Positions 7,936 to 22,388 of a DNA stretch of 64,000 nucleotides are shown piece after piece. The position numbers and the translations under genes were made by a program. Location: NCBI GenBank assembly GCA_022823865.1, contig JAJEHF010000068.1:1-64000 (forward strand), read 5' to 3'. Origin of the DNA: Bryobacterales bacterium. Lineage in GTDB: Bacteria; Acidobacteriota; Terriglobia; Bryobacterales; UBA6623. Below the pieces are notes generated by a model. The model worked only from the letters and a program-made list of their open reading frames with translations. It was not told the DNA's origin and made no database searches. Each line of letters begins with the position of its first letter. The first letter of the stretch is position 1.

Positions 7936-8619
7936 ATGAACCTGCTCGCGATCGACACGGCTCGGCATGAGGGCAGCATCGCGCTGCTGTGCGATGGCGC
8001 TGTCGTCTGCGAGGCCCCTCTGGGCCAGGGTCCCGGGTTCGGCGAAACGCTGTTCCAAGCCATCGAGCGCCTGCTGGCCGAGCGGTCTCTGGCGCTGCGG
8101 GACATAGACTTCTACGCCGCCGCGACCGGTCCGGGATCCTTCACTGGCATCCGCGTCGGCCTGGTGGCGGCCAAGGCGCTGGCTGAGACGAATCGCAAGT
8201 CCCTGGTCGGCGTTTCCAACTTGCGGGCGCTGGCATCCTTGGCGCGTGGCGCCGCCGTTCGAGTGCCCGTGCTGGACGCCCGCCGGGGAGGGCTGTTCGC
8301 GGGATTCTACGCGGCAGACTGCGAGGCGCTCCGGCCCGATGCGTACTGCCAGTGGACTGAGCTGGAGCCCGAGCTGGAATCCCTGGGGGCCACGCTGGTC
8401 AGCAACGAGCAGGATCTGTTCGAGGCCGACGGCGCGCTGGCGACGGCGAGCGGGGCGGCGTGTCAGACCGCTCCGGCCGCGCTCGCCGCCGCGGTGGCTC
8501 GCGTGGCTGCGGGGGATGTCGCCGCTGGCCGGGCCTGCAGGCCCGAGCAGGTCGAGGCGAACTATATCCGGCGACCCAACGCGCGGCTGCCGCGCCAGCC
8601 TCAGGCCGCCAGGCGCTGA
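7936..8619 (+). CDS. tsaB: tRNA threonylcarbamoyladenosine biosynthesis protein TsaB (227 aa)
   Basis: TsaB is the partner of TsaD in making the t6A37 modification of ANN-decoding tRNAs. It is an ASKHA-fold protein without its own catalytic site. The N-terminus (MNLLAIDTA) and the hallmark [13 protein letters not shown] at about residues 63-75 are clear. It follows topA by 7 nt in the same direction. Its last 19 nt overlap the end of metX on the opposite strand. tsaD and tsaE are not in the window. Confidence 0.93.
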
Positions 8620-9698
8620 AGGGTGTTCTCGAGGAACCCCTTGATCAGCGGGGTCTGTCCGCCGGCCTCCAGCAGGAAGGCGTCATGCCCGTAGTTGGAC
8701 TGCAGCTCGACGTACGCCACGTCGCGGTTGCGGGAGCGTAGCGCCCGGGTGATCTCCTGCGATTGGTAGCTCGGATAGAGCCAGTCGGAGGTGAAGCTCA
8801 GCACTAGGAAGCGCGTCTCTCCTCGCGCGAAGCAGTCTTCCAGCGAGTCGCGCTCTGCGGTCAGGTCAAAGGTGTCCATCGCCCTCGTAATGACGATGTA
8901 CGAGTTGGCGTCGAATCGGCTGACGAATTGTCCGCCCCGGTAGCGCAGGTAGCTTTCTACCTCGAACAGATCGGTTTCGTCCGCCGCCGCCCTCCGCCGC
9001 CGCCCGAATTTCTCGCGCATGGAGTCATCGCTCATGTAGGTGATGTGCCCGACCATGCGCGCCACGGCCAGGCCCCGTTCCGGATAGGTGCCTCCGTAGT
9101 AGTCGCCGTGGCAGAAATCGGGATCGGCCAGGATGGCTTGGCGGCCCACCTCGTTGAAGGCGATTTGCTGGGCCGAGTGGCGGTGTGTGCTGGCGATCGG
9201 GATCACCGATGCAACCGCGTCAGGGTAGGAGGCGGCCCACTGCAGGGCCTGCATGCCCCCCATCGAGCCGCCCGAGACGCACAGGAGCTTGCGAATGCCC
9301 AGCGAGTCCGTCAGCTGCTTCTGCAGACGCACCATGTCCGCGATGGACACGTGGGGGAACTGCGAGCCATAAGGCTCGCCGGTGGCGGGGTTGGTCGAAC
9401 TCGGCCCCGTCGTGCCCGCGCATCCGCCCAGCACGTTCGAGGACACGACGAAGTATCGATTCGTGTCGAAGGCCTTGTCGGGTCCGATCATGTTGTCCCA
9501 CCAGCCGCTCTGCTTGCCATCGCAGCCGCTGCCTGCGGCGTGGGCGTCCCCGGAGAAGGCATGCAGGATCAGGATCGCGTTCGAGCGGCGCTCGTTCAGC
9601 TCGCCGTACGTCTCGTAGGCGACGGAAACAGGCGCTAGGGTCTGGCCACAATCGAGTTCGATGGAGCCGAACTCCGCTATCTGGCTGGAAACTCTCAT
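8601..9698 (-). CDS. metX: homoserine O-acetyltransferase MetX (365 aa)
   Basis: Alpha/beta-hydrolase enzyme that acylates L-homoserine in methionine synthesis. Visible features are the family N-terminus ([12 protein letters not shown]), [11 protein letters not shown], the [14 protein letters not shown] oxyanion region, the nucleophile elbow [14 protein letters not shown], and the C-terminal catalytic Asp/His region ending [12 protein letters not shown]. The frame is open upstream to 10076, but the ATG at 9698 ([10 protein letters not shown]) matches the family start; the extra N-terminal residues would be low-complexity and antisense to the tkt leader. The acyl donor (acetyl versus succinyl) cannot be settled by eye. 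It is divergent from tkt across 241 nt that must hold both promoters. Confidence 0.92.
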
Positions 9699-9939
9699 CC
9701 CGTTTCGCCTATCCACTATTTTGCGCCAAGCGATCCGGCCGCTTGTCTGGCACGCCGGCTGGCCCGTATCGCGGGCGGCGCGCACGCCCTGCAAGTTATC
9801 ATGGAAGCACGGTCGCCGGGGCCGCTCGGTCGCGGTTCGGCCGTGCCAGTTTTCGACCGGCCGGGCGTGTTCCGCCCCGCAGTGCGGGCGGTTGCCGGCC
9901 GGCGCTGCCCGTCCCTTTCGAGAGGTTTCAGCCAATCCC

Positions 9940-11802
9940 ATGTCCATCGCACTTGCAGCCAACGCGCTCGACGGCCTGAAAGACAAGGCCACGAGGATGA
10001 GGATCCACTCGGTGCGGTCGACCACGGAGGCCGGCAGCGGGCATCCGACCACCTGTGCTTCGGCGGCCGAGATCATGACCGCCCTGTTCTTCGACGCGAT
10101 GCGCTATGACCCGCGCGATCCGGCCAGCGAGGAGAACGACGTTTTCATCCTCTCCAAGGGCCACGCCGCTCCCGTGCTCTACGCGGCCTGGTCAGAGGTC
10201 GGCTACATCGCGGAGGACGAGCTGCTCAATCTGCGACGCATCGATTCCGACCTCGAGGGCCATCCGCCGACAACACTGCCGTTCGTCGACGTGGCCACCG
10301 GGTCCCTCGGCCAGGGCCTCAGCGTGGGGGTGGGCATGGCCCACGCCTGCCGCTTGGATGGCAACGACCGGCGCATCTGGGTTCTGCTCGGAGACGGCGA
10401 AGTTGCCGAAGGGTCGGTCTGGGAGGCGGCGTCGATGGCTGCCAATGACGGACTCGGCAATCTGATCGCCACCGTGGACGTGAACCGGCTGGGGCAGAGC
10501 GCGCCGACCATGCTGCAGCACGACATGGAAGCCTACCGGACCCGCTGGGAAGCGTTCGGCTGGGAAACTCTGGTCGTGGACGGCCACGACATCCACGCGC
10601 TGATCGAGGCCTATGCCAGGGCGTGCGAGTCTTTCAGCCAGCCGACCGTCATCTTGGCCAAGACCTATAAGGGACGGGGCATCCCCTGCGCCGAGGACAA
10701 GGACGGCTGGCATGGCAAGCCGATCCCCAAGGGCGCGCTTGCCGACGAAACGCTGGAGTCGCTTCGGGCCCAGCTCACCGGTGCGCGTTTCGACTGGACG
10801 CCGAACCTGCCGCCGCGGCGCAACGGGCAGCGTGCGGAGCCGGCCCGAGTCGAGCCGCCGCCGTATGAGGTCGGCGGCCCGGTAGTTGCGACGCGCCAGG
10901 CCTACGGAGCGGCCTTGGAGGCGCTGGCTCGCGCCGATTCGCGCGTTGTCGGCGTCGACGGGGATGTCGGCAACTCTACCTTCACCACGGACATAGGTAA
11001 GGTGGATCCGGGGCGGCTGCTGCAGTGCTACATCGCCGAGCAGAACTTGGTCGGCGTGGCGATGGGACTGGCCTGTCGCGGCAAGATCCCGTTCGCCTCG
11101 AGCTTCGCCTGCTTCCTGGCGCGAGGGTACGACTTCATGCGTCTGGCGGCCATCAGCTCGACCAACATCAAGCTGGTGGGGACGCACGCCGGGGTCTCGA
11201 TCGGCGAGGACGGCGCCTCGCAGATGGGATTGGAAGACTTGGCGATGGCCTGCGCCGAGCCGAATTACACGGTTTTCTATCCCAGCGACGCAACCAGCGC
11301 CTGGCGGGCGATCGAGCTGGCCGCCCGAATCGACGGACCGGTGTACGTCCGCACGAGCCGCCCCAAGACCGAGATCCTGTATGGACCGGGCGAGACGTTC
11401 GAGGTTGGCGGGTCCAAGGTGATCAGGTCGAGCGCTCACGACAGCGTCGCAATCATCGGGGCAGGAGTGACCCTATACGAGGCGTTGAAGGCGGCGGATG
11501 AGCTGGCGGCGGAGGGAATCCAGGCGCGCGTGATCGACCTGTTCAGCGTGCAGCCGATTGACCGCGAGACCTTGGCGAAGGCAGCGCTTGAGTGCGGCGG
11601 CAAGATCATCACGGTGGAGGACCACTATGCCCATGGCGGGATCGGTTCGGCAGTCTTGGCGGCGCTTGCTGAGCAGGATGCGCGGGTGCGTCAGCTCGCT
11701 GTCAGGGGCATCGCGCGTAGCGGCAAGCCTGGCGAGTTGCTAGACCGGTTCGGGATCTCGGCGCGCCACATCTCCGCTGCGGCGCGGGAGATTCTTGCCT
11801 AG
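9940..11802 (+). CDS. tkt: transketolase (620 aa)
   Basis: Thiamine-diphosphate enzyme moving two-carbon units between sugar phosphates in the non-oxidative pentose phosphate pathway. The N-terminal domain has the TPP/Mg-binding stretch [17 protein letters not shown]...N, preceded by [11 protein letters not shown]. The pyrimidine domain has [16 protein letters not shown], and the C-terminal domain ends at residue 620. At about 620 residues it is the short animal-type form, not the 660-residue E. coli type. The ATG at 9940 reads [17 protein letters not shown], a plausible family start. Its 3' 590 nt are duplicated as a decayed copy about 3.7 kb downstream. Confidence 0.94.
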
Positions 11803-11813
11803 TCTGATCTCCT

Positions 11814-12118
11814 AACGCATTCGGCTAAGTCACACCGATCCCAAAGTCGGGACGTACACCTACGCCGAGCTCGCTAGCTCGCTTCGCCGCCTCGCGTTCG
11901 GTCAAGTTATACTCTCTTATCGTGAAACTATTGCAAAATTATCTGGTCCATATATTACGTTTCCAAAAGGCATTGTTGCAGATCCTGAACTCTTCACCGC
12001 GGCCAAAGGAACTTTGCAAAAGCCTCGATTTTCAGACTATCTTCTTGCGTCTTGGGCGGTCGGATCTCTGGCGCGATTAGCCACCTACCTTGTCGGGTCT
12101 GACTCAGGGGATGCCTGA
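11814..12118 (+). other. possible small or truncated gene of unknown function
   Basis: A frame of about 100 codons with no ATG start runs from the TAA near 11811 to a TGA at 12116-12118. It reads sensibly (for example TYTYAELASSLRRLAFGQV and FTAAKGTLQKPRFSDYLLAS) and is much richer in A+T around 11900-12010 than the neighbours. It converges on the methyltransferase gene with about 34 nt overlap. I do not recognise it. It may be the remnant C-terminus of a gene brought in with the restriction-modification-like module. Confidence 0.25.
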
Positions 12119-13095
12119 AATAGCAAGCCGAGATATATGTCGACGACTTCACCTGCATCGATTTGTGCGATGGTCTGGCGGACCTCCGCGTCGCTCCAAC
12201 GATCCATGAAGCGCACGGCCGACAGGGCGGCGTACTCATGGCTGAGGTCCATGCTGAGCCAACGGCGACCGAGTTCCTCGGCCGCTTGGCCTGTGGTGTT
12301 TGAACCAGAGAAGATGTCTACCACTAAATCTTCTGGGTCGGTAAGGAACTTGATGAAGAACTGTGGCAGTGCGCTTGGGAACCTCGCGGGGTGGCTCTTT
12401 CGGTCCAGCATGTTGCAGAGCCGCAGATAGCTTGAATTGCTTTCCGTGTTTGGGATTTGCAGTAGGTTCGATGGGATCGCGCCTCCGTTGTCCTTGGCGA
12501 AGGCCTTTGCGATATCGTGTCCTGACGGTCTCTCCTTCGGTTGGTAGAACCTGTCTGGATCCTCAAGCAACGCCTTCATCCGCTCGGAATACGGCACCAA
12601 CACCCGCGTGACGTCCGCCTTTGGCGCGGCCGATCGGGCGAACCACCAGACCGTGTTCACCGCGTCCTTGGCTCGGATCTTTCGCTTGTTGACCCATTCG
12701 ATCGGTGACGGCAGCTTTGCCGGATTGAACCAGAAAAACTCTTCTGCTAGCTCATAGCCGAGGCGCTCGCAGAAATCCAGCAGAACGTGGTAGTTGTAGA
12801 GCGATCGCACGGGTTTCCCGCGCTTGTAGGCTCCGCCGAGGTCGAGTACGAAACTACCGCTATCCTTTAGCACTCGGTACGCGGCCTCTCCAAACCTCCC
12901 GAGCCACTCGACATACTGATTCTGCTCTTTGTTGCCGTACGCCTTCTGTCGTAGTAGCGCGAAGGGAGGGCTGGTCATGACTAGGTCGACCGACCGATCC
13001 GGGAGGTGCGCTAGCAACTCCAAGCTGTCACCGCACAGCTGAGTGCCACGGGGCGTGCGATACACCTGTTTGTCGAGCGGGAAGTCAAGATTCAT
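12085..13095 (-). CDS. site-specific DNA methyltransferase, beta class, probably cytosine-N4 (336 aa)
   Basis: A DNA amino-methyltransferase. The catalytic motif IV is TSPPF at residues 41-45 and the SAM-binding motif I-like FSGSNTTG is at 262-269, giving the IV-then-I order of beta-class enzymes. An S-P-P-(Y/F) catalytic box is most often seen in cytosine-N4 enzymes; adenine-N6 activity is not excluded. Its ATG overlaps the stop of the upstream HEAT-repeat gene by 4 nt (ATGA), so the two are translationally coupled. This suggests a modification partner of a two-gene restriction-like module. Sequence specificity cannot be read. Confidence 0.88.
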   Translation of the reverse strand: MNLDFPLDKQVYRTPRGTQLCGDSLELLAHLPDRSVDLVMTSPPFALLRQKAYGNKEQNQYVEWLGRFGEAAYRVLKDSGSFVLDLGGAYKRGKPVRSLYNYHVLLDFCERLGYELAEEFFWFNPAKLPSPIEWVNKRKIRAKDAVNTVWWFARSAAPKADVTRVLVPYSERMKALLEDPDRFYQPKERPSGHDIAKAFAKDNGGAIPSNLLQIPNTESNSSYLRLCNMLDRKSHPARFPSALPQFFIKFLTDPEDLVVDIFSGSNTTGQAAEELGRRWLSMDLSHEYAALSAVRFMDRWSDAEVRQTIAQIDAGEVVDIYLGLLFQASPESDPTR

Positions 13096-14648
13096 CGGGC
13101 ATCTCCCGCATCAGGGATGTTCGCGTCCGGTTGCAGCTCCCAGCGCTGCGCTATCCAGCTTTCGGCGAACGACCACAACACTGTAATCGCGTAATGAAGC
13201 TCGGGTGCCGTTTGCTGTAGATTCGCTACCGCGCCCGCGAGGCGCTCTCTGGGCAAGTGGCCAGCTAGCCAAACGGCCCAAGCGGAGGGGTTCCCACTGG
13301 TAAGCTGCGCACGAAGCGTATCTATGGCGTCGGCTGATAATCGCCTGTGCTGCCGCAGTGCCTCGGCACAGCCGGCTGCGGTCGCAGGATCCATTTCCTG
13401 CAATCCGGAGAGAAGTATGGGGACTGCGTCTGAGCGCAGGCTGACGATGCCCTCGAGGGCCTCTTCGCGGAGGTTCTGATCCACATCCCCAAATGCTTGT
13501 ACAAGGCGCCGACACGCCTCTGAGCCACCGACGCGACTCAAGGACCAAGCTGCGGCGCTACGTGCGAAGTACGGGCGTTCCGTGTCATCCAAGATAGTGC
13601 TCAGCATCCTCACACACTCATGGGTGCCGGCTTCTCCCAACGAAATCACTGCCTCGAGCTGAATCTGCGGGTCGGGGCTTCGCAGATACGGCGCGAATAG
13701 GTCTTGCGCTCTCATCCCTTGGATTGCAACGAGGTACGCCGCGGCCTCCAGCCGGATGTACATGTCTTCCTCCTGATCGCCCTCAAGACTCCCAATGGCT
13801 CGGGGTAGAGAGTCGCTGCGCCTATGTCGGAGCCTCGCCAACTTTACTCCAGTGAACCGTTGAGTCCGCTCGCGGGAGTTCAAGAGCTGTATAAGGTGAT
13901 CGTCAGTTAACACCCCGGAACAACGCAGGTCATAATCGACTTCCGGCCTGACTCTCGACGCGATAATCTGGTTGAGCGCGACTTTGTCTCCGCTCTCCAC
14001 TACTATCTTCATCGGTGAGGGAACCGTCTGCGTGTGACGGTGCCCATCGCTAGCTCTGGCAATCGTGATTTTCTGACCGCTAACGGCCTCGACGACGCCG
14101 TCCCGCTTGGAAAACCGCGACTTCCACGAGATACTGGTTTCCGATCCTTCGGTCACGCCCTTGGTTGATGCGTTGTCCTGTGGCTCGGCCCGGAACCGGC
14201 CGACCCGCACGTAGTTTACCTTCCCTTGGGCGCGCCACTGGATCCAGTTGCGCTCATGCCAGTATGAGATCGGCTCCTCAAGCCGACCGATGCTCCACTG
14301 CTTCTCTTCGTCCTCTTTGCAGACCGGGAAAGCAACCACGTCGGTATCCACCATACCGAAGTCCCACGCACGTTCATGGGCGGAGAGGCTATGGGACATC
14401 GACAGTTCGGTCTTCGTCTTGGCGCGACTCTCAACGCGAAGTCCGCAGAGCTCGCAAACAAGATCCGGAATACGGACTCGCTTGCGCTTGACGTCCTTCC
14501 AAAGTTTCGTGTCCATTGCGCCTCGTTCGAGCTCAACGATCCGATGGCCCAAGCGCTCCAGATCTTGCGCCACGTGTCGGCTACCCACGGCTCCAAGGGC
14601 TATCTTCCGGAAAAAGCTGGAGTCGGGCTTGAGGGCTAGACGTGGCAT
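13092..14648 (-). CDS. HEAT-repeat protein with nuclease-like N-terminus, partner of a DNA methyltransferase (518 aa)
   Basis: Residues 1-140 include PDLVCELCGLRVESRAK at 61-77: a Pro-Asp pair, a CxxC pair and an E-x-R-x-K string. This resembles the acidic/Lys core of PD-(D/E)XK nucleases combined with a small Cys motif. A middle region of mixed strands follows (about 150-280). From about residue 295 to 470 there are repeated helical pairs of the HEAT/PBS type (IRLEAAAYLVAIQG, IQLEAVISLGEAG, FARSAAAWSLSRVGG, LREEALEGIVSLRSD). It is the first gene of the coupled pair and the methyltransferase is the second, an arrangement that argues for a restriction or DNA-binding role. The nuclease reading is inference from a motif; the HEAT repeats are clear. 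Confidence 0.6.
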   Translation of the reverse strand: MPRLALKPDSSFFRKIALGAVGSRHVAQDLERLGHRIVELERGAMDTKLWKDVKRKRVRIPDLVCELCGLRVESRAKTKTELSMSHSLSAHERAWDFGMVDTDVVAFPVCKEDEEKQWSIGRLEEPISYWHERNWIQWRAQGKVNYVRVGRFRAEPQDNASTKGVTEGSETSISWKSRFSKRDGVVEAVSGQKITIARASDGHRHTQTVPSPMKIVVESGDKVALNQIIASRVRPEVDYDLRCSGVLTDDHLIQLLNSRERTQRFTGVKLARLRHRRSDSLPRAIGSLEGDQEEDMYIRLEAAAYLVAIQGMRAQDLFAPYLRSPDPQIQLEAVISLGEAGTHECVRMLSTILDDTERPYFARSAAAWSLSRVGGSEACRRLVQAFGDVDQNLREEALEGIVSLRSDAVPILLSGLQEMDPATAAGCAEALRQHRRLSADAIDTLRAQLTSGNPSAWAVWLAGHLPRERLAGAVANLQQTAPELHYAITVLWSFAESWIAQRWELQPDANIPDAGDAR

Positions 14649-14917
14649 GATGACAATCTAACTCAATGGCTTCCGGCGATAGGCCGGACGGAAGTCCAAC
14701 GGGCCACCCCAGCACGGTACGCCGGAACGGGATTACGCCCATAGGCAACTGCTCGGCCACGCTACGATGGAGTGGATCGCGGCACGGAGCATGCCCATCG
14801 TTCAAGCCCGAACGTTTGGTGGCTTGATGAATCGGCAGTTTGATGGATTCGGCTGCGTCTCCTCCGGGCGAAGAGGATCCCGCGCAGGAAAAGAAATCCC
14901 TGACCGAGCGGCGGCCG

Positions 14918-15321
14918 ACGCCTCGAAGATGGGATTGGAAGACTTGCCGATGGCCTGCGCCGAGCCGAATTACACGGTTCTCTATCCCAGCGACGCGACC
15001 AGCGCTTGGCTGGCGATCAAGCTGGCGGCGGCAGGAATCTAGACGTGCGTGATCCACTCGTTCAGCGTGCAGCCGTTTGACCGCGAGACGTTGCCGAAGG
15101 CGGCGATTGAGTGCGGCGGCAAGATCATCACGGTGGAAGACCACTATGCCCACGGCGGGATCGGCTCGGCGGTCTTGGCGGCGCGTGCCGAGCAAGATGC
15201 GCAGGTGCGTCAGCTGGCTGTGAGGCGCATCGCACGGAGCGGCAAGCCTGACGAGCTGCTAGACCGGTTCGGGATCTCGGCACGCCACATCGCCGCTGCG
15301 GCGCGCGAGATGCTTGCGTAG
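14918..15321 (+). pseudogene. decayed duplicate of the transketolase 3' end
   Basis: This segment copies the last ~590 nt of tkt (from about 11213 to the stop at 11802) in the same orientation. It has lost exactly 186 nt between two AGCTGG hexamers (11315-11320 and 11501-11506 in the parent), and a CAG codon has become TAG soon after the junction. Apart from that it stays colinear to the natural stop, with scattered substitutions. Similarity seems to continue a short way past the stop. No promoter, start codon or N-terminal domain is present. It cannot encode an enzyme. Confidence 0.93.
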
Positions 15322-15473
15322 CCACGAGCATCTCGCGCATTAACCCCGTGCCAGCTGCATCCCGATCTTCAAGAGGCGGGGTGTACTAGGCCACAGCGGT
15401 CAACTTGCCGGGATTGATTCAGGCAATGTCCCGGCGCTTCTTCTGGCAGTCGCCACGAAATTCCTGCTTGACG

Positions 15474-15743
15474 CTAAGCGTCATACAGAGCGGCCTGCAG
15501 AGCGATCGGTAGCGGAGCAACGATCAGGGGCCGTCCCTTGCTCGTACGAGAAGCCTCGGGCAGGTCCATGCCCTCCCGCATCGTCGCGGCGATCAATTCC
15601 CGAAGCAAGTCCGCGGCTTCGGCCAGTGCCTCCTGGCGGGTTGCGCCGTCCGTCGCGCCCCAACCGAAATCGGGGAATGTGACGACATAGCGGCCGTCGC
15701 AATCTCGTTCGATGTAGGCGGGGTAGGTGTAGGTGCCAGGCAT
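15474..15743 (-). CDS. HicB-type antitoxin, short form (89 aa)
   Basis: The sequence TYPAYIERDCDGRYVVTFPD, followed by a TDGATRQEALAEAADLL helix, is the partial RNase-H-like fold of HicB antitoxins, which block the HicA mRNA interferase. The protein stops right after ALQAALYDA; many relatives continue there into a C-terminal helix-turn-helix domain, so this copy may be truncated. No convincing hicA gene is seen directly upstream or downstream. The ATG at 15743 matches the family start; the open frame extends further upstream. Confidence 0.65.
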   Translation of the reverse strand: MPGTYTYPAYIERDCDGRYVVTFPDFGWGATDGATRQEALAEAADLLRELIAATMREGMDLPEASRTSKGRPLIVAPLPIALQAALYDA

Positions 15744-15847: not shown

Positions 15848-16183
15848 GTGACGGTGAAGAAGAAGCGCGTGCATGGAGTCGTGGCACCCTCAGAGCATGC
15901 CGCCCTTCGGGTCACCCCGTCCCATCCGGGACCGTCGATCCGACGCAGCTGCATCGGCAGCGAGGCGGCCGGCTGCGGGGGCGCACTGACCGTCAAAGAC
16001 GCGGCGGAGCGGCTGGGCGTGTCGCGCGTCGCGCTCTCGCGCCTGCTCAACGCACGAGCAGGCATCTCGCCGGAGCTGGCCCTGAGGCTGGAGGCGGCCG
16101 GCTGGGGCGACGCGATGTCGTGGACTTGGCGGCAGGCCAGCTACGACCTAGCCCAAGCGCGCAAGAGGCGCGCCGCCGCCTGA
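15848..16183 (+). CDS. HigA/VapI-type helix-turn-helix antitoxin-like protein (up to 111 aa)
   Basis: The C-terminal 65 residues match XRE-type antitoxins of the HigA family: LTVKDAAERLGVSRVALSRL, LNARAGISPELALRLEAAGW, then a tail like YDLAQARKRR. The N-terminal part contains a recognisable HPG segment (VTPSHPGPSIRR), but the stretch joining it to the HTH is abnormal, so a compensated frameshift or decay is possible. The GTG at 15848 is only the first start in frame. No HigB toxin was found next to it. It is divergent from the HicB gene, with start regions about 100 nt apart. Confidence 0.45.
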   Translation: MTVKKKRVHGVVAPSEHAALRVTPSHPGPSIRRSCIGSEAAGCGGALTVKDAAERLGVSRVALSRLLNARAGISPELALRLEAAGWGDAMSWTWRQASYDLAQARKRRAAA

Positions 16184-16359: not shown

Positions 16360-19300
16360 TTATGGCCGTTTCTGGCGCGGGGCCTGGCTCACGAGGACCT
16401 GCCGCAAGTCCGGTTGCGCCGGGCAGGCGCGCTTGAAGTGCGGGCAATGTATGCAGCGCTCGTCCTCTCGGAGCGGATACGCTTGCGACCGCTGGGCTGC
16501 GAAGAACTCTTCGACCAGACGTTTGGCACCTTCGAGCGCGCCGTCGCTGACATCGATGTCAATCGGGGCTCCGTGGCGAAGGTAGAACACGACGGCCCGA
16601 TCCACGGCTGTTTGTGCCTTGGCCAGCCCGGCAGCGTACAGCTGGAGTTGGGCAGCGTACTGTTCTGCCGAAACCTCCAGTTCTGAGGCGGGTCGATTGT
16701 CCGTCTTGTAATCGACCAGGATGCGCTCTCCCCCCTCTTCAAACAGGAGGTCGACCGTGCCTCGCAGCAGGTAGTCGCCGACTGTGAACACGAATGCCAT
16801 CTCGCGGTCGATCCGACCGGCCCGCTGGCTGCGCAACCCCAGATCGTGGTCCGCGAATCTCTCGGCCAGGGCTCGAACCGCCGGGCTCGGGTCTTGAAGC
16901 TGCCCGGCGAGGTGCTCATGAACCTGTTGTCCGAACAAGGAGGGGTCGATATCGTCGCGACCTCGCCGCTGGCCGCGGTCATCGCGACGATCGTCGAGCT
17001 GCCCCGATCCCAGATCGTCGCTCTCAAGGCCGAGATAGCGCGAGAGGAAGTACTTTCGGGGACACTCCGCAAACAGCGACACCGACGTGACAGCAGCTGA
17101 GTAGTCGGCCTGGGCTGCAGGGGCCAACGGCTCGAGCACCTCCGGGGCGGCCCACGCTTCAGCGGCCCGCGCCTGGCTGTCAGGCGCTTCCCCGACTGTC
17201 TTGCTGTAGAGAAACTCGACGTCTCCGATCATTCGTTCCTCGAGGCCGTCGGTCGGAGCCTCCTTTGGGTTGATGCCCAGCCTGTCGAAGACCGTCTTGG
17301 CCCAGCCGCTCCTTTGTGTGGCACCTGCATACGATGTGCTGAGGATCAAGTGCTCTTCGGCACGTGTCATGGCCACGTACAGCAGCCGCTCCGCTTCCGT
17401 GCGCTCGCGCTCGGCGATGTCGGCGCTGGTCCTCGCAAACGCGGTGTCGGGCACAGGGTCGCCTTCGAACGGCTGGCGCCAGCGGGCTCCGATGCCATGG
17501 TCCTCCGAGAACAACAGCCCGGCTTGGCGCGCTGTAGGGCGGCTCTGCAGCGCGGCCAGCACCACTACGGGAAACTCCAAGCCCTTGGCCGCGTGCATGG
17601 TCAGCACTTGGACCGACGCCGCGCTCTCGGCGCCCTCGGGAGCGGCTTCTTCGGGGCGCTGTGCCTCCAGCGCCCGATCTAGGGCGGCGGAGATCGCATC
17701 CAGCGAAACGAGGCCTTGCCGCTCCTTTCTGGCGATCCATTCGAGCAGTTGGTCGACCCGAGCCAGCGCCAGATCGCTGTCGTCCTGCCGGGCGAGAAAT
17801 GACCGATATCCGCACCCCGAGATAGAGCGCGCCAGCAGGAAGCGCGGCGGGACAGCGGCCCGATCGGCACGGCAGCGAGCGAGAAGTTGGCGGAAGCGTT
17901 CCAACCGCCTCGCTCCATCGGGGTCCAGGCCGGCCGCGTTCGGAGAGTCTGCCGCCAGGGCTTCGGAGAGGTTCTCGAAGAGGAGTCTGATTCGCAGCAG
18001 GGCCGCATCCGTGATGCCGCAAAACGGTGACTTCAGCACGGCTGCGAGACTGACCTCGTCCCTCGGGTTGCGCACCACCCGGAGGAAGGCTGCGAGTTCT
18101 GCCGTCTCGGGGGCATGGAACAATCCGCGGTCGGTACTGGTCAGGCAAGGAATGCCGTGCCGCCGGAGCGCTCCCGCGATGACGGCGCCGCCGGCGTGCG
18201 TGCGCACGAGGATGGCGACATCTCCCCACCGCAGGCCGCGCGTGCCGCCGCCGGCCTCGCGGTCGACAACGCGCAGCTCCGACTTCAATGCCCGCAGCCG
18301 GTGCGCCAGCCGAAGCGCTTCCTGCGTTCGCGCCTCCGATCCGGCGTCGCACACGACTTGCACTTCAAGGCAGGCCGATTCCTTGGGGGGAAACTGGTAC
18401 GCCGCATTGAGGCGGTGGCGCTCCACCCCGCTGGAATCGCCTCCGGGCAGCAGGCGATGCACGGCGGCCAGCACCTCTGGGCGGCTGCGAAAGTTGTCCA
18501 GCAGGCGGATGACGTCGCCGCCGCGCTGCTCCACGCGCTCCCGGTACCGGCGGAACACGTTCTGATCTGCATGTCGAAAGCCGTAGATCGATTGGTTGAT
18601 GTCTCCGACGACGAACCGAACGGGCCGCCGGTCCCCGTGCGCGTCCAGCAACCGGTCGACCAATCGGACCTGGAGAGGATTCGTGTCTTGAAACTCATCG
18701 ATCAAGATGTGCTCGAACGCCAAGGCCGGACAATCGGGAGACGCCAGCAGGTCCGCTGCCAGGGCCAGGGCATCGTCAAAGTCGAGCCGTCCCGACGTGC
18801 GCTTGGCTGCGCCGAAGCTGGCCAGCGTGCGTCGTGCCAACCCGCGCAGCCACTTGCGGGCCGACTCGTTTGCCGCACAAACGGCAGCCGAGCGACAGGC
18901 CGGCAACAAAACGTCCTTGATCTCGCCCACCAGTTCCTTCGCTGCGCCGCGCCTCTGCACGGGCTGCAGCAGGGCCGCGATCGTCTCCAGCGCGGCGGGG
19001 CTGGCATCAGCCTCGGCGCAGGCCAGTCTGGCCTCGTCGGCCGCGCGTGCGACCCCCTCTGACTGCTGGACCCCGGAGAGGCAGCGTAAAGCGTCTGCCA
19101 GCGCGCCGAGGGGCGGCCGGGGGCTCGTTGTAAACGGCCTGCAGCCGTAGCTGCGGATCCGGTAGATCAAGTCCGCCAGGTCTCTATGGATCGACGAGGT
19201 GTCCTCGCCCGCTGATCGTGCCGCGCTGGGACCGTAGTTCGCGAGAAACGCCTCCAGCCCCGGACCGCTCTTGCCGAAGGCTTCGTCGAGAGCCTGCTCG

Positions 19301-19680
19301 ATGGCCTCGGACAGCAGTTCGTTCGCTTCGCCCGCATCCAGCATCTCGAACCCCGGATCGACTCCGGCCTCGAGCGCGCGCTCGCGCAGCAGGCGGCTGC
19401 AAAAGGCGTCGATGGTCGAGATCTGGGCGGACTCGAAGAGGCTTCGGTGCTCGCTGGCCGGGCGGCTCTCTCCGACCAGGCGCGAGTGCATCTCAAGCGC
19501 TGCCTTCTCGGTGAAGGTGATGGCCAGAATGCGCTCGGGCCGTACGTGCCGCTCGACAATCAGCCAGCGCAGCCGCTCGACCAAGACGCGGGTCTTGCCC
19601 GAGCCCGGCCCCGCGACAACGCAAATGTCTCCTCGCTGCCAGCTCTGCACGGCGCGCAGCTGTTCCGGCGTCAGTTCCAT
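16360..19680 (-). CDS. addA: ATP-dependent helicase/nuclease AddA-type subunit (1106 aa)
   Basis: UvrD-family helicase fused to a RecB-type nuclease; with AddB it processes double-strand DNA ends for recombination. Motifs in order: VAGPGSGKTRVLVERL (Walker A, residues about 20-35), ITFTEKAALEM, LIDEFQDTNPLQ (Walker B), GDINQSIYGFRHAD, LTMHAAKGLEFPVVVL, RLLYVAMTRAEEH, then the nuclease box GTVDLLFEEG...LVDYKTDN near 975-995. Unusually, the nuclease domain also has Cys in AECPRKYF (about 868) and a C-terminal CIHCPHFKRAC (about 1077), the spacing expected of an iron-sulfur staple. The ATG at 19680 shares one base with the addB stop. Confidence 0.9.
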   Translation of the reverse strand: MELTPEQLRAVQSWQRGDICVVAGPGSGKTRVLVERLRWLIVERHVRPERILAITFTEKAALEMHSRLVGESRPASEHRSLFESAQISTIDAFCSRLLRERALEAGVDPGFEMLDAGEANELLSEAIEQALDEAFGKSGPGLEAFLANYGPSAARSAGEDTSSIHRDLADLIYRIRSYGCRPFTTSPRPPLGALADALRCLSGVQQSEGVARAADEARLACAEADASPAALETIAALLQPVQRRGAAKELVGEIKDVLLPACRSAAVCAANESARKWLRGLARRTLASFGAAKRTSGRLDFDDALALAADLLASPDCPALAFEHILIDEFQDTNPLQVRLVDRLLDAHGDRRPVRFVVGDINQSIYGFRHADQNVFRRYRERVEQRGGDVIRLLDNFRSRPEVLAAVHRLLPGGDSSGVERHRLNAAYQFPPKESACLEVQVVCDAGSEARTQEALRLAHRLRALKSELRVVDREAGGGTRGLRWGDVAILVRTHAGGAVIAGALRRHGIPCLTSTDRGLFHAPETAELAAFLRVVRNPRDEVSLAAVLKSPFCGITDAALLRIRLLFENLSEALAADSPNAAGLDPDGARRLERFRQLLARCRADRAAVPPRFLLARSISGCGYRSFLARQDDSDLALARVDQLLEWIARKERQGLVSLDAISAALDRALEAQRPEEAAPEGAESAASVQVLTMHAAKGLEFPVVVLAALQSRPTARQAGLLFSEDHGIGARWRQPFEGDPVPDTAFARTSADIAERERTEAERLLYVAMTRAEEHLILSTSYAGATQRSGWAKTVFDRLGINPKEAPTDGLEERMIGDVEFLYSKTVGEAPDSQARAAEAWAAPEVLEPLAPAAQADYSAAVTSVSLFAECPRKYFLSRYLGLESDDLGSGQLDDRRDDRGQRRGRDDIDPSLFGQQVHEHLAGQLQDPSPAVRALAERFADHDLGLRSQRAGRIDREMAFVFTVGDYLLRGTVDLLFEEGGERILVDYKTDNRPASELEVSAEQYAAQLQLYAAGLAKAQTAVDRAVVFYLRHGAPIDIDVSDGALEGAKRLVEEFFAAQRSQAYPLREDERCIHCPHFKRACPAQPDLRQVLVSQAPRQKRP

Positions 19681-22388
19681 CAGCTCGTGCCGTCCATGGA
19701 CTCTTCGAGGTCGCTTGGCGGCAGCCATTCGACGCGGCAGACGCTGCCGAATTCGCAGAAGCTGTCGCAGAACTCGCGGTCTCGCGGGCGAACCGCGATG
19801 CCTCCGTCGAGCACTTCTTCGACCGCCTCGGCCGCCTCGGAGCGGGCCGTGTCCAGCAGCGCGCGCATGGCGTCCTGCGTGATCGGCTGGAGTCCGCACT
19901 CGCCGTCGATCGCAGCGCCTGCGAAGCTGGTCTCCCCGCGCAGGCCGCACAGCACCATGCCGGTCGGCTCGAAGCTGAGCTGCTGCTCGAGCGCGGCCAG
20001 ATAGAGCAGCATCTGGAGTTCTTCGCCCTCCAGGTGCCGCTTGAGAAGTTCCTTGACACGACTCGGCCGAGCGTACTTGTAGTCGGTAACCAGACAGCGT
20101 TGGTCCGGATCGACGTCGTAGCGGTCGATGCGGCATTTCACGACGGGCTGGGAGCCGAGGCTGCTGATACGGAATTCCGCGGCTTCCTCGAACCGCGACT
20201 GCATGCCCTCCGGCAGCGCCATCTGGATGGTCTGGTCGCTGTCGGCGAAGCGCTGCAGGTCGGCACGGAGAGCCAAGCGATAGCGCTCGGTGCGAAACGT
20301 CTCTTCGAGACGAAGCTCGCTCAGCTTTGCGTCGAAGGCTCGATCCAGGATCTTGCCGATCTGCCCGCCCTCGCGATTCCAGCAGTCGACCGCGGCGTGG
20401 ACGATCGTGCCGAGCGCCTGCGCGTCAAGCCTCTGGCCGGGGAGCGGCGGCCTGCCCTGCAGCCGAAGGGTGGTGGCCGAGAAGAAGCGGTAGGGGCATT
20501 GTCGGAAGTCGCCGATGCCTGAGACGCTGAATTGCGGGTTCCGTTCTGCCACGGCCCCGAGCAGGGCGCGCGGCAGGCTGGCAGCGGGCTCGGACGGCGA
20601 TTCCGCAGCGGGGGATCCCATGCGCAGCCGCGGGCTGCGGCGAACTTCGGCCGCGCCGTCCTCGATCAGGCTCGACCTCGCCTGAGGCTGGCCGTCGCTG
20701 GCGCGCAGGGGGTAGCTCAGGACCAATTGCTGCGTTGCCCTTGAGGAGGCGACCTCGAAGAGCCGGCGCTCGGCTTGCGCCCGGTCGGCCGAAGTGCGCA
20801 GGTCGATTCCTCGGCCGCGCAGCTGGATGCGATCCTCGTCATCGAAGAAGATGTCTTGCGTAAACCTGCGCGGGAACCAGCCTTCTGCCAACCCGCAGAC
20901 GAACGCAACCGGAATCGACCATTGCCGGGACTCTGCGATCGGCAGAACATGCACGACGTCGAAGCGCTGGTCCGGCACGGCCAGGGTCGTGTTGCGAAGG
21001 ACGTCTTCGAACGCGTCGGCGAATGTCTGCAGCGCCGGTCGCTTCCTGCCCGCGAATTCGGGCAGGTCGCCCGTTTCCTCGAGCGCGCGCGCCAAGGCTT
21101 GCCGCGCCCGGATGGCGACTCGCCAGTCGCATGTCCGCAGGAACGACTCCGTCCCGACCGGAGGCCGCAAGTGCTGGACCCAGTTGAGCAGTTCTAGGCA
21201 GTCGGCCTGCCAGCGCTTCGCGCCGACGTGCCGCCGGTGCCAGTCCTGGCACGGTGCGAGCCCCCGCAAGAACCGCCTGACCGCCGGAAACTCTCCCGCC
21301 GAATTCACTAGGAATTCCAGTCCCTCGCCGGGCAGCGCATCCCGCACCGCGAAATCAAACTTGTCGATCCCGGGATCGGCACCGACCGGAGTGAGCGGGG
21401 AGCATATCGCTTCGATCGCCCTCTCTGCGGAGAAGCGCGACTCGATGACGCGCAGCCACTCTAGGAAGTGGCGGGTCACGCCGTGGTCGGCCAGGGAGTC
21501 CCTGCTCCAGAACCTGTGAGGAATGCCCAAGGCCTCGAACACCTCGCGGATGAGCCCGGCGTAGTGCTCGAGCGAGCGCACGATGATTGCGTGCTGGTGT
21601 AGCGGCCGGTTGCTGGCGAGAATCCGCCTGGCGATTTCCATGACCTCCGCGCGGGGAGAGGGCGCTTCTACCAATTCCGGCTTCAAGGCTGCATCGCGGG
21701 GGGGCGGCGGCAGCGGTTCGGGCTTGCCCGGCGGGTAATGCGGCAGGCCCTCCGGCATCGCCACGACGAACTCCTCGGACTGCTCGTCCAAGGCACCCAG
21801 GAGTTCTTCCTGCTGCTTGGTGAAGATGTCGAAGCCATCGACGTAGACTGTCCGGACCGCGCTCAAGCCCTGCTCGCGGATCCGCGCGGCCGCCAGCGCT
21901 ATCCGCTGGTTGGTGTGGGCGAAACCCTCCTGCGCCAGGCTGCTCTCGAATTCACGGAAGACTCCCGCGAAGGCGCGCTGCTGGCGTGTCCGCGCGGCGG
22001 GCTCGACTTGGTAGCTGTCTGCCCCGGCCGCCCAGAACTCGCGCATCAGGCCGTCGATGCGGCTGCGCAGCCGGGCCGAGCCGGAACGGGACTCCAGGCC
22101 CGGTTGACCCGAAGCTTCCACGGCTTGGCTCAGAAGGCGATCCTCGACGACTCCGCCGGCCTCGCGAACGTCCGGGGTCAAGCTCCGGACATACTCCGGC
22201 ATCGTCGAAACCACCCTTGCGGGCACCATCAGGCCCCTCCGGGCCAGCTGGTTGAGCAGGTGATTCCGCATGCTGGCGGTCGGAACCAGCAGCAGGACTT
22301 CGTCGCTGCGGCCGGCACGGATCGCAGTCTCGAGGGCCCGTAGGATGTGCGCTGTCTTGCCGCTGCCGGGAGGTCCGATCAGTAGCAC
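19680..22388 (-). CDS. addB: AddB-type helicase-like/exonuclease subunit (902 aa)
   Basis: Second subunit of the end-resection complex. A Walker A loop lies at the very N-terminus (GPPGSGKTAHILRAL). The rest of the helicase-like part is degenerate, as is usual for AddB. The C-terminal nuclease has GDFRQCPYRFF near residue 633, the catalytic VTDYKYARP near 769, and CDSFCEFGSVC near 880, together the four cysteines of a 4Fe-4S nuclease staple. The start is a GTG at 22388. It is upstream of addA and overlaps it by one base, so the order addB-addA is one operon, read leftwards from the 184-nt gap shared with the LolD-like gene. Confidence 0.87.
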   Translation of the reverse strand: MLLIGPPGSGKTAHILRALETAIRAGRSDEVLLLVPTASMRNHLLNQLARRGLMVPARVVSTMPEYVRSLTPDVREAGGVVEDRLLSQAVEASGQPGLESRSGSARLRSRIDGLMREFWAAGADSYQVEPAARTRQQRAFAGVFREFESSLAQEGFAHTNQRIALAAARIREQGLSAVRTVYVDGFDIFTKQQEELLGALDEQSEEFVVAMPEGLPHYPPGKPEPLPPPPRDAALKPELVEAPSPRAEVMEIARRILASNRPLHQHAIIVRSLEHYAGLIREVFEALGIPHRFWSRDSLADHGVTRHFLEWLRVIESRFSAERAIEAICSPLTPVGADPGIDKFDFAVRDALPGEGLEFLVNSAGEFPAVRRFLRGLAPCQDWHRRHVGAKRWQADCLELLNWVQHLRPPVGTESFLRTCDWRVAIRARQALARALEETGDLPEFAGRKRPALQTFADAFEDVLRNTTLAVPDQRFDVVHVLPIAESRQWSIPVAFVCGLAEGWFPRRFTQDIFFDDEDRIQLRGRGIDLRTSADRAQAERRLFEVASSRATQQLVLSYPLRASDGQPQARSSLIEDGAAEVRRSPRLRMGSPAAESPSEPAASLPRALLGAVAERNPQFSVSGIGDFRQCPYRFFSATTLRLQGRPPLPGQRLDAQALGTIVHAAVDCWNREGGQIGKILDRAFDAKLSELRLEETFRTERYRLALRADLQRFADSDQTIQMALPEGMQSRFEEAAEFRISSLGSQPVVKCRIDRYDVDPDQRCLVTDYKYARPSRVKELLKRHLEGEELQMLLYLAALEQQLSFEPTGMVLCGLRGETSFAGAAIDGECGLQPITQDAMRALLDTARSEAAEAVEEVLDGGIAVRPRDREFCDSFCEFGSVCRVEWLPPSDLEESMDGTS

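Follow-up and report, generated by a model that had tools for sequence, protein, structure and literature searches.

Restriction-modification (RM) genes are described in print as inserting into genomes with long target duplications of variable length (PMC3031569, PMC3874152, citing Nobusato 2000 and Furuta 2010). Partial-gene duplications are also on record from E. coli work on homology-facilitated illegitimate recombination and single-crossover integrants, where circles that bore part of a gene end entered by a single crossover and 14 sequenced clones had duplications of 109–950 bp (PMC3240628), and one-sided recombination of a like kind is proposed by the authors for the displacement of 3′ modules, with orphan genes, at Vibrio type VI secretion loci (PMC5361080). 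Here we describe a locus in a 64,000-nucleotide stretch of a draft Bryobacterales genome (GCA_022823865.1, contig JAJEHF010000068.1, positions 1 to 64,000; the whole stretch is referred to as the window), in which an RM-like pair, a DNA methyltransferase (MTase) and a HEAT-repeat protein, lies between the intact transketolase gene tkt and a decayed second copy of its 3′ end. The locus shares with the published RM insertions the RM-type genes, the lack of a visible transposase, host DNA repeated directly at either end and an empty site in relatives; it differs in the length of the duplication (595 nt, where PMC3874152 gives 'in the order of 100 bp'), in that the copies are about as old as the species, and in that the unit may predate the duplication in the genus. 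The reading that we favour, at somewhat better than even confidence, is that a mobile RM-like unit resides in a defence hotspot, and that the tkt duplication stems from a later integration, one-sided or by a single crossover, at a locus where the unit was already present or had come with a congener.

The two tkt tails, copy U at the end of the intact gene and copy D downstream (Table 1), form a direct colinear repeat in two blocks, with 98/106 identical positions between 11208–11313 and 14913–15018, 269/303 between 11500–11802 and 15019–15321, and a weak 8-nt extension at 11198/14905. These alignments bear out an initial annotation of this DNA, which had reported an intact tkt ending at 11802 and a colinear tail copy in the same orientation, and they refine the extent of the repeat to 11208–11802 and 14913–15321. 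A genome-wide search (231 contigs, limit E 0.001) returned only U, and D in two pieces (D to E 1.1e-110). The decay ascribed to the second copy is also present: a 186-nt in-frame gap is flanked by two GAGCTGGC stretches, and a CAG codon has become TAG in frame at 15040–15042. The G+C content of copy D (0.655) is host-like. A faint similarity said to continue beyond the stop codons proved to be at chance level, with 80 nt compared with 80 nt and 18% of 2000 shuffles scoring equally high.

The pair sits between the two copies, as first described. Both genes are on the minus strand and overlap by 4 nt, filling 12085–14648; the 282 and 264 nt of further sequence beside them hold a single 92-codon frame, open on the plus strand at 11837–12121, which lies mostly in the 50% G+C DNA, enters the 3′ end of the MTase gene and has no Pfam or plasmid match. 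Matches to 11803–12084 are short (22–83 nt) and occur in 3 of 20 relatives. A composite or insertion-sequence-type transposon was considered and rejected: there is no transposase, and no inverted repeat of at least 20 nt, the lengths searched, pairs the ends. Separately, 8001–10400 of the window is 98–99% identical to a congener, G005, against 90–95% on either side, suggesting a recent exchange that spans a metX-like gene and the 5′ part of tkt.

Table 1. Features of the tkt locus (window coordinates) and the restriction island of genome G004 (locus coordinates).
Feature	Position	Strand	Basis or remark
Intact transketolase gene tkt, 620 aa	9940..11802	+	Pfam Transketolase_N/pyr/C; NCBIfam NF004559, 826.9 bits (cut-off 488)
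Copy U, 3′ end of intact tkt	11208..11802	+	Alignment to 14913–15321
G+C-poor (50%) stretch, tkt stop to MTase gene	11803..12084		282 nt
DNA methyltransferase, M.PvuII (N4-cytosine) type, 336 aa	12085..13095	-	phmmer 1boo; PF01555; PADLOC PDLC03323, E 5.5e-150
HEAT-repeat protein, 518 aa, candidate restriction partner	13092..14648	-	PF13646
Spacer, HEAT gene to copy D	14649..14912		264 nt
Copy D, 5′-truncated, decayed tkt 3′ end	14913..15321	+	186-nt deletion at 15018/15019; TAG at 15040–15042
Resident downstream flank	15322..15533		Directly after the single tkt end in G005 (to 15432) and G001 (to 15533)
HicB-like antitoxin	15474..15743	-	Pfam 26.9 bits, slightly below cut-off 27
HigA-family antitoxin, within open reading frame 15848–16183	15989..16183	+	TIGR02607, 53.5 bits (cut-off 47.7)
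UvrD/AddA-like helicase gene, right neighbour of hotspot	16360..20136	-	Open reading frame; named by reading the sequence, not by family search
G004 restriction island	L029 107-6410 and L046 9466-12301		Type IIG RM, ImmA/IrrE-type, PIN-like, PLD-SNF2 helicase

As in the PvuII system, the MTase is an enzyme that aligns with M.PvuII (1boo) over nearly its full length (phmmer E 9.2e-128, residues 9–320 of 336); this homology, which includes an SPPF motif invariant in 11/11 aligned MTase sequences, places it in the M.PvuII type. Its neighbour differs from that of the PvuII system in being a HEAT-repeat protein, and no R.PvuII-like gene was found among those window proteins that were family-searched. 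Searches of Pfam, NCBIfam, structures and PADLOC matched the HEAT protein to no nuclease family; PADLOC gave HEAT-ARM_XIII at 1.1e-6, and the AlphaFold model is poor, with a mean predicted confidence (pLDDT) of 44. An N-terminal motif, R-x-P-D-x-x-C...G-x-R-x-E-x-x-x-K (residues 59–77; window 14418–14474), is invariant in 13/13 aligned HEAT sequences, including ones at about 30% identity. Its region gave no nuclease match: the best structure match was RNA polymerase beta′ at E 0.013, no Pfam match was better than 0.029, and PADLOC returned nothing at 0.1. Among the papers listed by literature searches on PvuII and RM systems with such a partner, none names a HEAT-repeat pair in its title or the start of its abstract. 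We regard the HEAT protein as a candidate restriction partner of the MTase, and the two-gene unit may modify and cut foreign DNA. Judged from the MTase family alone, it would presumably protect CAGCTG-like sites by N4-cytosine methylation, with the HEAT protein cutting unprotected DNA. Avoidance of CAGCTG was considered as a sign of active restriction and set aside, as the window contains 41 such sites against 44.3 expected.

The comparison covered genomes (G numbers; the genus set comprises 11, including the window genome) and loci (L numbers). The empty site with a single tkt 3′ end that had been anticipated in relatives is present in G005 and G001, where the tkt end aligns unbroken across the stop codon with window 15020–15432 and 15020–15533 respectively. 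Because the tkt end in these genomes runs straight into it, the flank from 15322 onwards belongs to copy D, and 11803–14912 is extra. The helicase gene stands directly after tkt, within about 30 nt, in G009 and G010. Elsewhere the tract between tkt and the helicase is variable: the window has antitoxin genes there and G005 similar open reading frames, the stretch in G001 is shorter, and G004 has a large island. Our best reading is that this tract, from tkt to the AddA-like helicase gene, is a defence-gene hotspot in this genus. The layout and the empty sites are also what would follow from a simple insertion with long target duplication, the mode in print for RM systems (PMC3031569, PMC3874152), by which a single entry soon after the split from G005 and G001 duplicated 595 nt of tkt and copy D then decayed. 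We consider this possible and, on balance, unlikely, in part on account of the age of the tails.

The tails were compared over 409 aligned columns with five relatives as reference. Copy D has 27 private changes (12/7/8 at the three codon positions) and copy U has 12 (2/1/9), and the decay of copy D looks neutral. U and D share a departure from the commonest base of the five relatives at 4 sites, the most that could count as shared-derived, and agree with each other against all five at 1 site. Synonymous divergence (dS) between U and D is 0.227, as large as that between species (U–G005 0.168, U–G001 0.192, U–G004 0.284; D–G005 0.157, D–G001 0.168), and the third-position distance between U and D is not significantly below that between U and G004 (difference −0.036, interval −0.102 to 0.029). 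The divergence is thus about at species level, and a recent origin of the tails is not supported. Approximately unbiased (AU) tests of five trees, on a fixed backbone with G004 and G009 as sisters, gave for all sites 0.78 with U and D as sisters, 0.44 with D basal to U, G005 and G001, 0.43 with D beside G005 and G001, 0.075 with D beside G004 and G009, and 0.007 with D outside all six; third positions gave, in the same order, 0.88, 0.18, 0.27, 0.09 and 0.033. An origin of D before the split of the six close species was rejected on the last value of each series (the Shimodaira–Hasegawa test at third positions gave 0.06). Unconstrained maximum-likelihood (ML) trees place D away from U with weak support, which speaks against simple insertion, as does the dS. 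Since U and D are sisters in the best of the five trees, a simple insertion that made the duplication at an early stage of this lineage stays under consideration. Our best estimate would place the separation of the tails near the split of this species from G005 and G001.

An indication that the pair came before the duplication is in G004, the only other of the 11 genus genomes with a second tkt fragment (tkt of G002 is cut by a contig end). This fragment matches tkt at window positions 10856–11064 and 11070–11315 and is followed by a stretch matching window 15342–15433, a HicB-like gene, and then a remnant of the HEAT 5′ end with the spacer, which G004 alone among the loci compared matches whole. 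The remnant and spacer (14480–14916, 74.8%) are joined directly to the helicase side (16402), with no tkt copy beside them. At the joint the window reads GAGCGGCGGCC and then tkt; G004 reads CAGCGGCGGCC and then intergenic sequence that is found after the tkt stop in G010. Between the window and G004, the spacer is identical at 192/262 positions (73%) and the HEAT 5′ part at 132/163 (81%); the spacer value is comparable to the level at neutral sites between them, with dS for addA and addB of 0.34 and 0.27. Because this divergence is near the neutral species level, the HEAT gene and spacer had probably become associated before the two species split, and copy D is probably younger than their association. 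Transfer between congeners could give the same picture in G004. As the tails are as diverged as the species and the G004 remnant has no tkt copy, the tkt locus probably held the pair, or a donor with the pair, before this duplication; simple insertion is harder to square with a HEAT 5′ end and spacer in the same interval, at about neutral divergence, with no copy D beside them. A pair older than the duplication had been named at the outset as the observation that would count against target duplication. The G004 remnant and spacer go part of the way towards it and are not decisive, given the U–D and U–G004 distances and the likeness to congener transfer.

The tkt fragment of G004 belongs to an island of its own. 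The intact tkt, on contig C52, is followed by genes for a PLD-SNF2 helicase, a PIN-like protein and an ImmA/IrrE-type protein (the latter two named by reading the sequence) and by the C-terminal part of a type IIG RM gene, the N-terminal part of which ends contig C68, adjoining the decayed tkt fragment; the halves cover 966–1369 (C52) and 38–917 (C68) of profile PDLC03620, and no overlap was found between the two contig ends. Because the fragment groups with the G004 tkt (bootstrap 96; 13 shared-derived sites, with 7 and 24 private), this island with its tkt-tail duplicate, which starts elsewhere in tkt, arose separately. Site-specific integration at one attachment point in tkt was rejected, the extra copies starting at 11208 in the window and at 10856 in G004.

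That the spacer is joined to the helicase side in G004 would also suit a duplication unrelated to the pair, in which a lineage like G005 and G001 supplied DNA comprising copy D, the flank and the antitoxin genes, and one-sided recombination with its anchor in the helicase gene placed this DNA next to a pair already resident. Copy D does run into a flank of G005/G001 type, it is as close to these genomes by dS as U is, and the tree joining it to them is not rejected. We nevertheless consider such an import improbable, because none of 403 sites unites D, G005 and G001 to the exclusion of U and the remaining three relatives, and it leaves unexplained a second gene duplication around the same pair in cyanobacteria.

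That duplication came from a contig scan for close HEAT relatives, which gave 9 loci, 8 with a full-length relative, at 75–79% protein identity. The metagenome-assembled genomes (MAGs) concerned are titled Candidatus Palauibacter, Gemmatimonadetes/Gemmatimonadota, Cyanobacteria, Synechococcus and Gammaproteobacteria; we take MAGs of such titles to come from sponges and corals. No close HEAT relative was matched on plasmids, phages or viral contigs. An MTase gene adjoins the HEAT relative in 10/15 loci (the 8 full-length loci and two further genomes), and the five without one are two distant (~30%) relatives, the fragments L045 (contig end) and L046, and L055 (contig end); a weak 65-residue MTase match lies on the opposite strand at one of the ~30% loci. 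In the genus, the window genome is the only one with a full-length HEAT gene at E 1e-10, the other ten showing solely the 60-aa remnant in G004, and a PvuII-type MTase at E 1e-40 occurs elsewhere only in G007 (51% identity), where it stands beside a small open reading frame of GIY-YIG appearance, by reading, and not a HEAT gene (L057 905–2577). A Synechococcus bin (SB0668, G406) has a second HEAT copy with the first 173 residues only (C43:17455–17979; L055, L087), with one stop within the open stretch and near a contig end. Our best reading of the HEAT–MTase pair is that it is a small mobile RM-like unit with a core of about 2.65–2.75 kb and no transposase within it.

In two cyanobacterial loci, L048 and L049, direct repeats of 160 and 179 columns, 89% identical, lie immediately outside the pair; DNA similarity to the window spacer stops at about 14723 and 14709 respectively. 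The repeat consists of the start of a UPF0093 gene (PF03653 for L049), presumably hemJ, with about 55–70 nt upstream, and the same protein is found at L048 (94%). With two full copies per genome, and otherwise one 68-nt match at 76% in G405, a dispersed repeat was rejected as its source. The single copy in G408 runs on into the right flank of L048, a match equalled by 0 of 2000 shuffles, and there is no such continuation into the left flank (0.59); G410 and G411 align across the same point, by alignment alone, and in G414, G409 and G407 the alignment stops short of the repeat end. No HEAT match at E 1e-10 was found in G408, G410, G411, G414 or G407; G409 has a 58-residue HEAT piece elsewhere, and G412 has a HEAT start beside the hemJ-like gene at a contig end. 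A single insertion, inherited by descent, probably accounts for L048, L049 and G412. As the layout recurs with the same pair at another gene, duplication as part of unit integration is favoured. The like layout is a point for simple insertion too, and the duplication of a different gene around a cyanobacterial relative hints at how such units may enter genomes without a transposase.

Of the insertion with long target duplication first proposed, the direct repeat, the empty sites and the parallels at the hemJ-like gene and in G004 thus stand; the tails are not recent, and the G004 HEAT remnant has no tkt copy. For the reading we favour, the integration would have left an intact tkt and one truncated extra copy attached to the resident flank, and the route would be integration through homology on one side or through a single, circle-like crossover, which is equivalent to the unit being captured between ends that are offset. 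We infer both this pathway and the timing of the duplication, later than the arrival of the unit or its carrier congener. The E. coli integrants (PMC3240628) are alike in having one homologous end and partial-gene duplications, and differ in being laboratory plasmids, not natural RM units, and in the slight microhomology at the joint here. The Vibrio modules (PMC5361080) share left-over copies downstream of a new module at a hotspot; those are effector–immunity modules with retained immunity genes, and here RM genes and a gene tail are involved.

Several points weigh against this reading. The tree with U and D as sisters is the most likely of the five; the evidence is wholly comparative, and no junction has been seen forming; microhomology at the joint (14912–14916) is slight, at most a few nt common to tkt. 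Both the window genome and G004 are draft assemblies, with a contig gap within the G004 island, and the cross-phylum picture depends on MAG contigs that are possibly misbinned. Furthermore, 7/10 pair-bearing loci have no bracketing repeat at E 0.01 (three of them have less than 600 nt on one side), and L042 has one of only 33 nt. An artefact of assembly or binning, in which a tkt tail from a different strain became attached to the contig, would be in keeping with a 231-contig draft, and we consider it very improbable: copy D shows pseudogene-type decay and host-like G+C, the order of its flank is the same in two relatives, and G004 and two cyanobacterial assemblies show similar layouts.

How RM genes that lack a transposase gain entry to genomes has long been asked. 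In the present case a single gene pair is associated, in different phyla, with long partial duplications of two unrelated host genes, an empty site is present for each, and a second restriction island has a like layout at tkt. Together these provide naturally formed junctions that differ in age and against which models of recombination can be weighed. More speculatively, and with considerable doubt, pairs of HEAT and M.PvuII-type genes might form a new class of defence unit, self-mobilising and transposase-free, that would cross phyla and enter through long partial-gene duplications initiated by HEAT nuclease cuts, with the repeats then permitting loss, amplification and re-entry at the hotspot. 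The unit is compact, and its movement could be tested in a laboratory strain.

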